Assembly (NCBI GenBank): GCA_003153375.1
Contig: PLYM01000146.1
Location: 807-38,484 of the forward strand
Direction of reading: 5' to 3'
Length of the DNA: 37,678 bases
DNA from: Planctomycetaceae bacterium
Lineage (GTDB): Bacteria > Planctomycetota > Planctomycetia > Pirellulales > PALSA-1355
Shown piece after piece: positions 6,506 to 12,884 of the stretch (position 1 is the stretch's first letter; every line of letters starts with the position of its first letter). The position numbers were made by a program, and so were the translations under genes. The notes below the pieces were generated by a model. That model was not told the origin of the DNA and searched no databases. It saw only the letters and a list, made by a program, of their open reading frames with translations.

Positions 6506-7558
6506 ATGTTGGATAAGAAGGAATTGTTCGCCAAAACGATCGAACACGTCGACATCACGCGCCACAATCCGGTGCCGCTGGTCGAGGCGATGAACCACAT
6601 GGCCTTCTCGGCACGCGATTTGGCGCGGGCCGCCGATGTCTACGATCGCATGCTGCGCGACAAGGACTGCGGCATCATCCTGTGCCTGGCCGGCTCGCTG
6701 GTTAGCGCCGGCTTGAAGAAGGTGTTTGTCGACCTGATCCGCAACCGCATGGTCGATTGCGTGGTCAGCACCGGCGCGAACATTGTCGACCAGGACTTCT
6801 TCGAGGGCCTGGGCTTTCGTCATTACATGGCTCCCGAGCGCGTCAAGGCGGGGCTGGATGACGATCGACTGCGCGATTTGCACATCGACCGCATCTATGA
6901 CACGCTGATCGACGAAGACGAACTGCGCATTTGCGACGAAACGACCAAGTTGATCGCCGACGGCTTGGCGCCGCGCCCTTACTCGTCGCGCGAGTTCATT
7001 CGCGAGATGGGAGCCTATCTGGCCGAAAACGGCAAGACGCGCGACTCGATCGTGCTGGCGGCCTATGAAGACGACGTGCCGATTTTCTGCCCCGCGTTTT
7101 CCGATTGCTCGGCCGGCTTCGGCCTCGTGGCCCATCAGCATGCTCGCGGCGATCAGCCGAAGGTGAGCATCGACAGCGTCAAGGATTTCTATGAGTTGAC
7201 GCAATTGAAGATTGCCAACCCGACGACCGGCATCTTCATGATCGGCGGCGGCGTGCCCAAGAACTTCACGCAGGACATCGTCGTGGCCGCCGAGATCCTG
7301 GGCGAGGACCCGCCGATGCACAAGTATGCCGTGCAGATCACCGTGGCCGACGTGCGCGACGGCGCCCTGTCAAGCTCCACGCTGAAGGAAGCCTCAAGCT
7401 GGGGCAAGGTCGATACGGCCTATGAACAGATGGTCTACAGCGAAGCCACGCTGGCCGTGCCGCTGATCGCCGGCTACGCCTATCACAAGGCCTCCTGGAA
7501 ACAGCGCACGGCCAAACGCTGGACGCGCGTGCTGGACGGGGCGGCGGCCACGGCCTGA
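6506..7558 (+). CDS. Deoxyhypusine synthase family protein
   Basis: A 350-residue member of the deoxyhypusine synthase (DHS) family, NAD-dependent enzymes that move the aminobutyl group of spermidine to an acceptor. Visible features are GIILCLAGSLVSAGLKKVFVD (NAD fold, ~56-76), CVVSTGANIVDQDF, PIFCPAFSDCSAG, GIFMIGGGVPKNF, and SSWGKVDTAYEQMVYSEAT. In the last, K301 lines up with the lysine that carries the covalent imine intermediate in eukaryotic DHS. Bacteria lack eIF5A, so the acceptor must be something else. Bacterial relatives have been linked to homospermidine formation, with putrescine as acceptor. No polyamine gene is adjacent. GAGGA precedes the ATG. TAGAAT at 6455-6460 is a possible -10. 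The family is sure, the reaction is not. Confidence 0.88.
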   Translation: MLDKKELFAKTIEHVDITRHNPVPLVEAMNHMAFSARDLARAADVYDRMLRDKDCGIILCLAGSLVSAGLKKVFVDLIRNRMVDCVVSTGANIVDQDFFEGLGFRHYMAPERVKAGLDDDRLRDLHIDRIYDTLIDEDELRICDETTKLIADGLAPRPYSSREFIREMGAYLAENGKTRDSIVLAAYEDDVPIFCPAFSDCSAGFGLVAHQHARGDQPKVSIDSVKDFYELTQLKIANPTTGIFMIGGGVPKNFTQDIVVAAEILGEDPPMHKYAVQITVADVRDGALSSSTLKEASSWGKVDTAYEQMVYSEATLAVPLIAGYAYHKASWKQRTAKRWTRVLDGAAATA

Positions 7559-7600: not shown

Positions 7601-10600
7601 TTACTTCGCAGCCGCCGCCGGCTTCAGCAGCAGGCCGCCGAGTTGCAGCAGGCTGCCTTTGATCGGTCCGGCCGAGCGGAAAACGATTTGTTGCGCGCCG
7701 GCGGGCAGGTCGATTTCGCCACCGCCGATCTCCTGGTAGCGATCGACACTGCCGGTACTGGCGACCTGCCCCTGGAGGTTCTTGTCGCCGGCTTCCAAGA
7801 GCCAGGTGTTGCCCGCGTTCTTCTCAAGGCAGGCATAGTTGAGCCGCACCGTGTAGCGGCCGGCCTTGGGTAGTTCGACGTTCCACACGACCCGATCGTT
7901 CTCGCTTTGCCAGTGGCCCAGGTTTTTGTACAGGCGTTCCATCACGATGGTGGGGCCGTAGATTTCGCAGTTCGTGGCATAGAGCTGCAGCGTGCCGTCG
8001 GTGGTCGGTTTGACCAGTTGCGGATGGTTGGCCCCGAACTTCTTGCGCGGAGCACCCGCCCCACGCAGATAAGCAATCACGTTGGCCAGATCCTGCGGCG
8101 CCAGATCTTTTTCCAAACCCTCGGGCATCAGCGATTTACCGGTCGAGCGCAGCGCTTCGAGCTCGGTGCGCAGGATTGTCTGCTGCTTGCCTTCCTGGCC
8201 GCGAAGGGTCACGCTGTTGCCGGTTTCGTCAGCTAACATGCCCGTGTAGGTCAGCCCGCTGGTGGTCACGGCCGCGTAGTCGAGATAGCGGGCTTCGACG
8301 CCGCGATTCGGATCGAGCATGGCCGTCAGCAGCGCCGGTGGCGAATAGTCGGTGAGCGCCGCCAGATTGGGTCCGACTTCGAAACCCACGCCACGCAGCC
8401 GGTGGCAGACCGCGCAGCGCTTGGCGAACACGGCCGCGCCGGCCTGGGCGTCGGCGGCCATGGTCAGCACCTCGCTGTGTCGCGCCAGCACCTGCTGGCG
8501 GTTCGATTCGATCGTGCCGGAGAACAGCTGGGCGGCGCGTTGTTTGAGGGCGTCATTTTGATAGCCCAGCAATCGCTGACGGCGGGCGGCGTCGATGTCG
8601 CTGGCCGGCACTTGCTGGCTTTCGATCGCGACCAGCAGCATTTCGACCCAGCGGTCGCGGCTCAATAGCGCATCCAGAATCTCGGACCGCAGACCCGGTC
8701 CATGACTCTTCCAATCGGTCAACAGCGCCGGCGGCACGGCTTCGGTGTCGATGCGCGCCAGCGCGTCGACAGCCGCGGTCTGCACGGCGCCGCTCGCCTG
8801 CGGAACCAGCAGGCCCACCAGCGACGCAATGTCGCGATCCCGATGCTCGGCGCTGCGTCCCAGCAGCCGCACCGCGCGCAGGCGGCCGTCGTCGCTGGCA
8901 TCGGCGCTAGCGACCGCGTGGCGGGCAAAGTCGAACATCTTGGCTAGGTCTTTCGAAGCGTCGTACTTCTCCCAACCGACGTTGCGACGGTCGAGCGAAT
9001 CGAGCAAACCGGCGAAGGCGGTCAACTGCCAGGGGGCATACCGGCCCTCGCGGGCCTTGCCGATTTTTTCCAGTGCGCCACCCAGGACGCTCTCGTCGTC
9101 GAACGCGCTGGCCAGCGCCACCAACGATTCGAGCAGCGCGGCCGGCGGCTCCTTGCCAGCTTCCCGATCAAGGACCGTCGCCAAGGTCGCGTGCAAATTT
9201 TTGGGATTCACGGAGCTCAGCACGGCCGCGGTCAGGAAGCGATCGCCGGCGAATCGCAACGCCAATTTGCCCAGCTCCGTGCCACAGCGAGCGTCATCCC
9301 ATTCGCCCAACGTATAAGCACGCTGCAGCTGCACCTGCATGTCGGCATCGGCCGCCAGCTTGACGACCTCGTCGCCCAGCGCGGGCGATTTGGCCAAATG
9401 CGGTTCGGCCAACCTTACGCCATGGCGACGCACGCCGGGGTGCTTGTCTTGCATGGCGGCCAGCACCAGTTCAGGCGTCAAGCCGCCCAGCAGTTGCAAA
9501 GTCCACAGCGCCTGCACGCGGCACTCGGCGCGCCCGGATTGGGTCGCCAGCTTTTTCAAGGGCTCGATCGCCGCGGCGTCGTTTCGCCAGACGAGCAACT
9601 GCTGCACCGTGTCGCGCTGCCAGCCGCTGGGGCTGTCCAGCGCGGCGACCAACTCGGCAAGGGACAACTTATCGAGCCGTGGAATCTTGCGCGGTTGGGT
9701 GCCAACGGGATAGACGCGATAGATGCGGCCCAAGTCGGCCCCGGCTCGTAGGTCCATCTTCTTTTGCACTTCCAGCGGAATCCACTCGGGATGCTCGATC
9801 GTTTGCCGATACATGTCGGCAATCCACAGCGCGCCGTCGGGTCCCGCGGCCAGCATCGTGGGACGGAACCAGTTGTCCTCCGAGGCCAGGAACTCGCTGG
9901 CCTGCTCGTCGTCAGCGCGGCGGCTGACGAAGGTCAAGCCCTCGGACCGCATGATCTCACGATGTACCAGGTTGTGTACCGGCTCGCTGACGAACGCGTT
10001 GCCCGCGAACGCGGGGCCGAACAGATCGTCGCGATAGACGATCGTGCTGTTGGCAGAGGTGAAGCGATTGGCGGCATACAGATCGTTGAAACGCGCGATC
10101 GTGCGGCTGCGCGGAAACACCTCGGCCGCGCCGGGCTGTTCGGAAACGTCGTGGCGGCCATTGGCGGCCGGCACGTGTTTGTTGCGACGCAGATAGTCGT
10201 CGTCCAAGACGAACTGATACATCGGTTCGCTGTTGGAGCAGCCGAACCAGTTGCCCCAGTCGTCGCGGTTGCGGCCAAACTGCGAAGGCCCCGACTGCGG
10301 ATCGAGCAAGCCCTGGTCGGGTTGGATGCGAAAATCGCGGCCGTTGGCGCTGGCCGTGCCACCGGCCCTGCGCAACTCGATCTTGCTGCCCAGCGAGTCG
10401 CCGTGAGCGCAATACAACCAACCGTCCAGTCCCCACTTTAAGCCGTTGACGCGATGCTGCGGATTGGCCTGCACGAAGCCATGATACAAAATCTCTCGCT
10501 TGTCGGCCTTGCCATCGCCGTCGGTGTCCTCGGCATACAGAATGTCGGGCGCGCCGGTGATCAGGATGCCGTTGCGCCACGGCGCGACGCCAGTCGGAAA

Positions 10601-12724
10601 ACCAAGCTGGTCGATGAACACGGTCGAACGGTCGTAGCGGCCGTCGCCGTCGACGTCTTCCAGACAGCGCACGACGCCCCCCTTCTTGCCCTTGCCATCC
10701 AGCCCGCGCGGATAATCGCCCATCTCGACAACCCACAACTTGCCGTCGGGTCCAAAAGCAAAGGCAATCGGATCGGTCACCAGCGGCTCGGCCGCCATCA
10801 GCTCGATCTGAAATCCGGGTCGGGCGTGGGTGACGGCCAGCGACTGTTTGGGCGTCTTGGGCCCCGGCAAATCCACATCCTTGAGCAGTTCGTCGAGCGG
10901 CTTGCGATCGACCACGTCGGGCAACTTGTCGGTGTCTTCGTTTTGCACGAACAGGGTGCGATCGTGCAGCCAGGCGCCGTTGTTCGTGCCCGCCCGGGCG
11001 ATCATCGGAATGGCACCGACGTCGCCGCGTTTGCCCGAGACGAACACTTGCGACCACCCCTTGTCGCCGGGCACGAAGAGGTGTGCCGAATAACCCATCT
11101 CGTTGGAGAACAGCACGTCGTCGTAGCCGTCCTGATCGATGTCGACGAACCGCAAGCCCACGTCGCGACCCTGGGCGTCGACAATCGAGGTACCTGGGGG
11201 AAGCGAGAACGGAAGCCGGGTCCAACCGTGGCCGGGCTGATATTTGAAAATCGCCTGTTGGCGAGGGTTGCTGACGATCAGCTCGCAAACACCGTCGCGG
11301 TCGATGTCGCGCAGACGAAGGCCGTGATCCACTCCCGCGCGGCTGACAACGATCTCCTGACCATCCACTTCGAGCCCCGTGACCAGATGCGGATCGGCAA
11401 CCCACTTGTCGCCATCAAAATGCCAACCGGCGCGTCGCTGGTCGTGCAGGACGATTTCGCTCGCCTGGCCCTTGGTGTTCATCACACCAAACTTCTCCCC
11501 GGCATCGAGCAATGCTGACGGGCCGGCGTTGGCCAGAGCAAGTGGCAGCTCGCTTTCGACCCACTTGCCGGTGGCGGGCGTCCATACACGAGTCTTCCGC
11601 ATGTTCGCGATGCCAATCGCGACGTCGACGTAACCGTCACCGTTCAAATCCGCGATGCGCACTCCGTTGTCGCCTCCGTCGGCGGTGCGCAGCGGCTGAT
11701 CGGCCAGCAGGTTGTGGTTGATTCGCTCGAGCGCCTCGCGGAAGTTCAAAAATTTGATCTTGTTGCCGTGCTTCGTCACGGCGTAATCGATCAGCTCGAT
11801 GATCTGGTCGCTGGTCACCCACTTGTGCGGGTGAAAGATCATCGCGAAAACACCCTGCTTGACGACCGTGGCGTCGAGCGCCCGCTTCCAGTCGGCCACC
11901 GTCTGAGGGTTGTTCGGTTTGTGCAGCTTTTGGGCGCTCCAGTCGCTGGGAACCACGAAGGGAAACTCCCAGCACAGCCGACCGATCACGTAGGGATAGG
12001 GATAATCTTCGATCGTGGTGACGAACGACTTGGAGGGCAAGTAGCGGCGAAAAATCTCCTGTCCTTTGTCGTCGACCACCAGCTCGCGAGGCAGCGAGGG
12101 ATCATTGGCCGTAATGATGTTCGCGACCGAGCTGTCGATCGAAAGAAAGTTGCCGCCGGGGGTGCGGCGATTGAAGATCTCGGCATAGAACCGCGGGCTG
12201 GGGCTATTCACCGAGTCACAACACGGCACGCGAAACGCCACGGCGCGATTGCCGGGCACCTGGTCCAACTGATCGACGCAGCGGTCGTAGGTGGCCTTCG
12301 CTTTGGCGAAATCGCTTTTGCCCAGCAGCGGACAGGGATGGTCGTAGGTATGCGCTTCGAGGCTCACTCCCTGCTTGAGCCAGGCCGCCAACTGCGGGTG
12401 CCGCGGATCGATGCGGCAGGTCATGATGCTCACCGGCGCGCGGCCGTCGATCTTTTGCAGCCGTTCGAGGATGGGCCGCAAGAAGACCTCCCACTTTTCG
12501 TGCTCTTTGGGCTTGTCCTCCTTGAGGTCGTCAATCGCCAGCACCACGACTGCTTGCACGCCGTCTTCGCCGACCCATTGCGGCGTCACAAGTTTGGGAA
12601 AGCTGCGCGAGACATAGAAAGGATCGCTCTCGTCCAGATATGTCAGGCGATTGCCATCGGCTGCCAGCAATGGCATGGCGACCCAAAGCAGCACAAGCAC
12701 GCAAACCCCCGTGACACTCCGCAT
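7601..12724 (-). CDS. Exported multidomain dehydrogenase-cytochrome c fusion with NodB-like and HEAT regions
   Basis: A 1707-residue predicted secreted protein. Order (approximate residues): signal peptide 1-22; NodB/polysaccharide-deacetylase-like domain 50-335 with VVVLAIDD and the metal-site-like HTYDH (125-129); FG-GAP/VCBS repeats 350-560 (LNGDGYVDV, IDRDGVCEL, IDQDGYDDV); Pirellula/Verrucomicrobium-type dehydrogenase propeller (TIGR02604-like) 620-1010; HEAT-like helical region ~1015-1400; TIGR02603-type heme domain ~1420-1560 with CAVCH at 1437-1441; C-terminal CBM6/35-like sandwich ~1580-1700. Such proteins are thought to oxidise sugars or other polyols outside the cytoplasm and pass electrons to cytochrome. 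The ATG at 12724 follows GGGGAG and is preferred over the TTG at 12730. It is convergent with the DHS-family gene. A TATAAT on this strand (12768-12773) is a candidate -10. Domain calls are by motif reading only. Confidence 0.88.
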   Translation of the reverse strand: MRSVTGVCVLVLLWVAMPLLAADGNRLTYLDESDPFYVSRSFPKLVTPQWVGEDGVQAVVVLAIDDLKEDKPKEHEKWEVFLRPILERLQKIDGRAPVSIMTCRIDPRHPQLAAWLKQGVSLEAHTYDHPCPLLGKSDFAKAKATYDRCVDQLDQVPGNRAVAFRVPCCDSVNSPSPRFYAEIFNRRTPGGNFLSIDSSVANIITANDPSLPRELVVDDKGQEIFRRYLPSKSFVTTIEDYPYPYVIGRLCWEFPFVVPSDWSAQKLHKPNNPQTVADWKRALDATVVKQGVFAMIFHPHKWVTSDQIIELIDYAVTKHGNKIKFLNFREALERINHNLLADQPLRTADGGDNGVRIADLNGDGYVDVAIGIANMRKTRVWTPATGKWVESELPLALANAGPSALLDAGEKFGVMNTKGQASEIVLHDQRRAGWHFDGDKWVADPHLVTGLEVDGQEIVVSRAGVDHGLRLRDIDRDGVCELIVSNPRQQAIFKYQPGHGWTRLPFSLPPGTSIVDAQGRDVGLRFVDIDQDGYDDVLFSNEMGYSAHLFVPGDKGWSQVFVSGKRGDVGAIPMIARAGTNNGAWLHDRTLFVQNEDTDKLPDVVDRKPLDELLKDVDLPGPKTPKQSLAVTHARPGFQIELMAAEPLVTDPIAFAFGPDGKLWVVEMGDYPRGLDGKGKKGGVVRCLEDVDGDGRYDRSTVFIDQLGFPTGVAPWRNGILITGAPDILYAEDTDGDGKADKREILYHGFVQANPQHRVNGLKWGLDGWLYCAHGDSLGSKIELRRAGGTASANGRDFRIQPDQGLLDPQSGPSQFGRNRDDWGNWFGCSNSEPMYQFVLDDDYLRRNKHVPAANGRHDVSEQPGAAEVFPRSRTIARFNDLYAANRFTSANSTIVYRDDLFGPAFAGNAFVSEPVHNLVHREIMRSEGLTFVSRRADDEQASEFLASEDNWFRPTMLAAGPDGALWIADMYRQTIEHPEWIPLEVQKKMDLRAGADLGRIYRVYPVGTQPRKIPRLDKLSLAELVAALDSPSGWQRDTVQQLLVWRNDAAAIEPLKKLATQSGRAECRVQALWTLQLLGGLTPELVLAAMQDKHPGVRRHGVRLAEPHLAKSPALGDEVVKLAADADMQVQLQRAYTLGEWDDARCGTELGKLALRFAGDRFLTAAVLSSVNPKNLHATLATVLDREAGKEPPAALLESLVALASAFDDESVLGGALEKIGKAREGRYAPWQLTAFAGLLDSLDRRNVGWEKYDASKDLAKMFDFARHAVASADASDDGRLRAVRLLGRSAEHRDRDIASLVGLLVPQASGAVQTAAVDALARIDTEAVPPALLTDWKSHGPGLRSEILDALLSRDRWVEMLLVAIESQQVPASDIDAARRQRLLGYQNDALKQRAAQLFSGTIESNRQQVLARHSEVLTMAADAQAGAAVFAKRCAVCHRLRGVGFEVGPNLAALTDYSPPALLTAMLDPNRGVEARYLDYAAVTTSGLTYTGMLADETGNSVTLRGQEGKQQTILRTELEALRSTGKSLMPEGLEKDLAPQDLANVIAYLRGAGAPRKKFGANHPQLVKPTTDGTLQLYATNCEIYGPTIVMERLYKNLGHWQSENDRVVWNVELPKAGRYTVRLNYACLEKNAGNTWLLEAGDKNLQGQVASTGSVDRYQEIGGGEIDLPAGAQQIVFRSAGPIKGSLLQLGGLLLKPAAAAK

Positions 12725-12884
12725 CCTCAATCACTCCCCTGACACGGTTTGGCGTCGAAACAGGGCCATTATAGCTGCGGCGCGGCAGCGACGGGAGATT
12801 CCCCAAAGCACGCAATCCACGGCCGTGGGTCGGCGATTCGCTAGCTGGCGAGGTTCTAGGCGACTGAAGAGAAAGGAATTGCTG

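Follow-up and report, generated by a model that had tools for sequence, protein, structure and literature searches.

A conserved planctomycete fusion gene joins a NodB-type deacetylase domain to a PQQ-dehydrogenase-like propeller and a cytochrome c domain

Introduction

Bacteria of the PVC group encode PVC-type heme-binding CxxCH proteins, or planctomycete-specific cytochromes (PSCyt), in which a DUF7133 propeller, HEAT repeats, and cytochrome c are united in one exported protein, and some PSCyt genes also have carbohydrate-binding modules (PMC5615132). He et al. 2017 describe the functions of PSCyt genes as entirely obscure, while the linked CBMs are taken to suggest a role in carbohydrate metabolism. 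In fungi, the PQQ dehydrogenase CcPDH of Coprinopsis cinerea (AA8-AA12-CBM1) likewise combines a propeller, a tethered cytochrome, and a carbohydrate-binding module, and its catalytic histidine is His363, equivalent to His144 in sGDH (PMC6881789). The CE4 deacetylases, including PdaC, PgdA, H. pylori HP0310, and insect chitin deacetylases, are characterized by a NodB fold and Asp-Asp, HxxxH, RxP, and His motifs.

Here, we describe a gene that brings elements of these systems together. Its product has the PSCyt arrangement of DUF7133 propeller, HEAT repeats, and cytochrome c, but adds an N-terminal NodB/CE4 domain and an FG-GAP propeller, a form not mentioned in the keyword-matched passages of PMC5615132. 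Unlike CcPDH, which has a cytochrome b (AA8) and a CBM1 and lacks both deacetylase and HEAT repeats, the fusion carries a cytochrome c and a CBM35-like domain. It shares the fold and motifs of CE4 deacetylases at less than 20% identity, with the NodB domain joined to propeller and redox modules, and differs from Kustd1711 of Kuenenia (7zs0; PMC11791136), a stand-alone diheme cytochrome c. A literature search, largely without subscription papers, returned no study of the NodB-FG-GAP-dehydrogenase-cytochrome architecture or its role, and a single paper that names the TIGR02604, DUF7133, or TIGR02603 families.

Results

The window, a 37,678-nucleotide stretch of contig PLYM01000146.1 from a Planctomycetaceae bacterium, encodes the fusion on its minus strand. 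From an ATG at 12724 to position 7601 the ORF yields 1707 residues, exactly the length given for this interval in an earlier note that did not name the strand, whereas the plus strand at 7601-12724 contains several stops. A TTG two codons upstream, at 12730, extends the ORF to 7601..12730 (minus strand, 1709 aa). Residues are numbered here from the TTG, adding two to the ATG numbering of the earlier note, whose HTYDH (125-129) and CAVCH (1437-1441) were correctly placed and become 127-131 and 1439-1443. A hydrophobic, signal-peptide-like stretch, MRSVTGVCVLVLLWVAMPLLAAD, read directly from the sequence, opens the protein (12656..12724, minus strand, end approximate). Full-length homologues at 44-74% identity occur in many genomes, hence the fusion ORF is not a chance product. 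The fusion of NodB, FG-GAP, dehydrogenase-like, HEAT, cytochrome c, and CBM35-like parts is real, and each part named in the earlier note was recovered by Pfam/NCBIfam and AlphaFold models.

The same fusion recurs in dozens of independent assemblies, among them those of Singulisphaera sp. GP187 and Aquisphaera insulae, both in culture, which leaves the chance of an assembly or gene-calling artefact close to nil. Convergent with the fusion gene, across a gap of about 40 bases, window positions 6506-7558 (plus strand) matched the deoxyhypusine synthase family strongly (315 bits), here in a bacterial host.

The NodB/CE4 deacetylase domain covers residues 38-340 (11711..12619, minus strand). Pfam Polysacc_deac_1 matched residues 61-170 at 22.1 bits in a single-sequence scan, just below the 23.1 cut-off, and scored 27.4 bits, above it, in the genome scan. 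A NodB profile built from 28 homologues reached the peptidoglycan deacetylases PdaC (E 2e-6) and PgdA (E 0.001), its best sequence matches. AlphaFold was applied as two models, one for each terminal part; the N-terminal model (pLDDT 90, pTM 0.91) comprised the NodB barrel followed by a propeller. Using VIA-align, the modeled domain was closest to 3rxz, a putative polysaccharide deacetylase (Z 21.6, rmsd 3.6, 253 residues), followed by PuuE allantoinase (Z 20.3; 20.3 to 20.6 with its relatives), H. pylori HP0310 (Z 20.2), and insect chitin deacetylase (Z 18.8), with many CE4 rows scoring Z > 14. These comparisons point to the distorted barrel of CE4 enzymes and agree with the polysaccharide-deacetylase-like N terminus proposed earlier, a NodB match in residues 50-335 being found by both profile and structure. 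Given that PuuE is among the nearest NodB folds, a non-glycan substrate is conceivable.

The key residues Asp67-Asp68, His127-xxx-His131, Arg167-x-Pro169, and His300 were identical in 100 of 100 rows of the homologue alignment, in which some genomes were counted twice owing to two overlapping collections. CE4 motifs 1, 2, 3, and 5 (xDD, H(S/T)xxH, RxP, and (I/L)xH) were represented by invariant IDD, HTxxH, RxP, and FHP across these rows; for motif 4 (Asp/Trp), conserved IDSS and YPYP...W segments lie nearby, with a correspondence that is not clear-cut. Loci from the motif-pattern search were found with IDD or HTx[DT]HPCP patterns and are biased at those sites, whereas R167, P169, H300, and the rows from the search of 57 genomes of the order are free of pattern bias. 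Judged by the secondary structure of the model, Asp67-Asp68 stand at the close of strand 1, with His127/His131 after a later strand and His300 after a late one, a predicted placement matching that in CE4; on motif and strand position, it is compatible with the metal site that the earlier note foresaw for HTYDH. By alignment, the putative metal and catalytic residue set, whose completeness the earlier note had left to be checked, is full and invariant.

The FG-GAP beta-propeller follows at approximately residues 343-620 (10871..11705, minus strand), with Asp-rich FG-GAP loops and Pfam repeats (FG-GAP/FG-GAP_3) at residues 359-540. Foldseek placed it with the GlcNAc-binding Psathyrella lectins (E 4e-6), a likeness of predicted propeller fold from which common binding does not follow. 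HEAT-like alpha-alpha repeats at approximately residues 1020-1407 (8510..9673, minus strand) were supported by Pfam HEAT_2, with a match at residues 1274-1354, by helical hairpins in the model, and by alphaRep matches. At the C terminus, approximately residues 1586-1706 (7613..7975, minus strand) form a modeled beta-sandwich. Pfam CBM_35 matched residues 1603-1646 weakly (17 bits against a cut-off of 28), and Foldseek aligned the tail with CBM35 folds (TMt 0.79, rmsd ~2.7 over 130 columns), in line with the carbohydrate-binding-like sandwich of the earlier note; hence the tail may work like a CBM35, though not filed as one.

The dehydrogenase-like propeller occupies approximately residues 622-1013 (9692..10867, minus strand), with matches to Pfam DUF7133 (residues 627-1008, 516 bits) and NCBIfam TIGR02604 (residues 639-1008, 287.7 bits, cut-off 122.2). 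The cytochrome c domain lies at residues 1426-1556 (8063..8455, minus strand; TIGR02603, 111.6 bits, cut-off 68.15), such that the signature of PVC heme-dehydrogenases, TIGR02604 then TIGR02603, both above cut-off, was found in the expected order. The C-terminal AlphaFold model reached pLDDT 81 and pTM 0.68; its pLDDT fell below 60 in the heme region and in portions of the propeller loops. The closest solved matches of the DUF7133 model included the PQQ sugar dehydrogenase 3a9g (Z 23.5), fungal AA12 (22.8), CcPDH (22.0), and sGDH (20.6). DFPase-like propellers also scored Z 20-21, hence the lead of PQQ dehydrogenases over other propellers is modest.

His759, the candidate catalytic residue, aligned with the catalytic His of GSDH in a local profile alignment (E 3e-8) spanning only the middle part of the propeller, and was identical in 77 of 77 rows covering the site. 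The modeled propeller thus pairs the sGDH/Asd/AA12 fold (Z 20-23.5) with a catalytic-type His. In a partial alignment to the PQQ/Ca residues of sGDH (such as Arg228-Asn229, Lys377, and Arg406/Arg408), motif comparison accommodated an invariant Arg956 and a Thr, while Lys377 and one Arg had no clear counterpart in the fusion; read by motif, Arg956 may correspond to an sGDH PQQ arginine. In the cytochrome part, whose closest solved relative is the second heme domain of Kustd1711 (7zs0), C1439, C1442, and H1443 of the CxxCH motif (CAVCH, 1439-1443) and the likely axial Met1535 were identical in 70 of 70 rows covering the sites.

The same domain order, which the earlier note proposed seeking in other planctomycetes, proved to define a conserved family not peculiar to the source genome. 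Of the order's 57 genomes, 28 carried the NodB/N-terminal half, mostly within ORFs 1580-2010 aa long that hold the complete series of domains, some lacking the CBM35-like tail; in the phylum sample it was detected in 16 of 294 genomes. It was usually present as one copy per genome. Named carriers included members of the Pirellulales, Gemmatales, Isosphaeraceae, Planctomycetaceae, and several Verrucomicrobiota. The motif-pattern search confirmed 335 stretches, of which the best 80 were read: 46 reach the C-terminal domain, 7 have the cytochrome as their last part, and about ten encode NodB+FG-GAP alone, with no contig end to account for the shorter gene. Since at least ten homologues among these best 80 of 335 carry NodB and FG-GAP in an ORF that lacks the dehydrogenase, the two halves can work apart. 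Across the neighborhoods of 90 loci, no conserved neighbor pointing to a substrate was found; PSCyt1-type genes (11 of 90) and sulfatases (6 of 90) occurred nearby, both being abundant families.

In a quick-method tree of the dehydrogenase-cytochrome part (72 rows), all 61 fused rows fell in one clade of 64 (SH-aLRT 100) that also held three unfused members (L075, L093, and L155). This grouping fits a single origin of the fusion, the simplest reading being one fusion event with later splits or losses. L075 has the halves as two separate neighboring genes, 0.77 kb apart on the same strand. L155 (2866-6303, minus strand, contig C246 of the source genome) is a second gene without NodB, encoding 1146 aa with 53% identity to the dehydrogenase half; its position beside a Gemmataceae fused protein may reflect transfer or a contaminating contig. 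The DUF7133-cytochrome protein of L093 (11792-15859, minus strand) has an N-terminal stretch with a weak likeness to ceramidase, below cut-off, and a stand-alone NodB+FG-GAP gene lies some 4 kb away on the opposite strand, an arrangement that suggests swapping of N-terminal hydrolases in the DUF7133-cytochrome family. In a paralogue, L150 (1575-5687, minus strand), a single ORF unites DUF7133 and cytochrome with a 3-keto-disaccharide hydrolase domain.

The genomes were also searched for PQQ synthesis. Across the 57 from the order, there was no PqqC, and PqqE gave no match above cut-off. PqqC exceeded cut-off in 2 of 392 phylum genomes, so the search was able to detect it; in these same 392 genomes, TIGR02604 was above cut-off in 141, often with tens of candidate places each, and the source genome alone has 33 stretches matching the fusion protein. 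PQQ synthesis is thus nearly absent from the phylum sample despite an abundance of heme proteins with the PQQ-dehydrogenase fold. Without PQQ biosynthesis in the order, the dehydrogenase either scavenges PQQ, uses another cofactor, or is not a PQQ enzyme. E. coli uses PQQ from outside without making it and fungi carry CcPDH (PMC6881789), hence PQQ use is compatible with absent synthesis.

Discussion

We give an even chance to the fusion being an exported bifunctional enzyme, at once a glycan deacetylase and a quinohemoprotein sugar dehydrogenase. The protein would be exported via Sec, its FG-GAP propeller and CBM35-like domain would grip a glycan, and the CE4-type metal site would remove N- or O-acetyl groups. 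In a plausible oxidising step, the AA12/sGDH-like propeller, with PQQ drawn from the surroundings, would act on one of that glycan's sugars, the reducing-end C1 being the likeliest position, and would pass electrons through the tethered His/Met cytochrome c to the respiratory chain. The earlier note saw here a "complete polysaccharide-oxidising machine"; its domain anatomy and NodB component stand, but with PqqC absent from all 57 genomes of the order the oxidising half may rely on scavenged PQQ, another cofactor, or none. Its further idea of a single glycan deacetylated and oxidised at the two sites goes beyond the data.

The same scarcity of PqqC, set against the abundance of TIGR02604 and the existence of sGDH-fold proteins such as hedgehog-interacting protein that are not dehydrogenases, lends some weight to a tentative alternative, in which an active CE4-type deacetylase is coupled to a redox module that keeps the sGDH fold with a different cofactor or substrate and a cytochrome reduced otherwise. 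We regard this, the runner-up to the bifunctional glycan enzyme, as possible though rather unlikely, since the catalytic-type His and the heme with its Met ligand are invariant and E. coli employs PQQ without synthesis (PMC6881789). An envelope function, in which the substrate of the NodB half is acetylated glycan of the cell's own wall or surface, trimmed to release sugars on which the redox half acts instead of dietary polysaccharide, would agree with PdaC and PgdA being the best sequence matches, the usual single copy per genome, and the stand-alone NodB+FG-GAP genes; the CBM35-like domain and the patchy occurrence (28 of the order's 57 genomes) better suit an accessory catabolic role, making the envelope role quite improbable.

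Hydrolysis of a non-glycan amide by the NodB domain is very unlikely. PuuE and its relatives outrank chitin deacetylases in the structural comparison, but the full CE4 set of Asp-Asp, HxxxH, RxP, and His motifs never varies, and a glycan is favored by the CBM35-like and lectin-like parts to which the domain is linked. PuuE is not known to have this metal set, which also counts against such a role.

Returning to the bifunctional glycan enzyme, the intact deacetylase motif set strengthens the suggestion, made by He et al. 2017, that PSCyt proteins act in carbohydrate metabolism (PMC5615132). In its boldest form, which we consider unlikely, one exported quinohemoprotein would deacetylate and then oxidise an amino-sugar glycan, respiring through its own heme, and hosts without PQQ synthesis would take PQQ from neighbors or use an undescribed cofactor across dozens of paralogous propellers. 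PVC genomes each hold dozens of heme-dehydrogenase fusions, and a fusion with an intact deacetylase and sugar-binding parts narrows the guess at what the family acts on to something concrete. With PQQ synthesis all but missing from a phylum where PQQ-fold proteins abound, an old puzzle becomes a testable choice between scavenged PQQ and something else.
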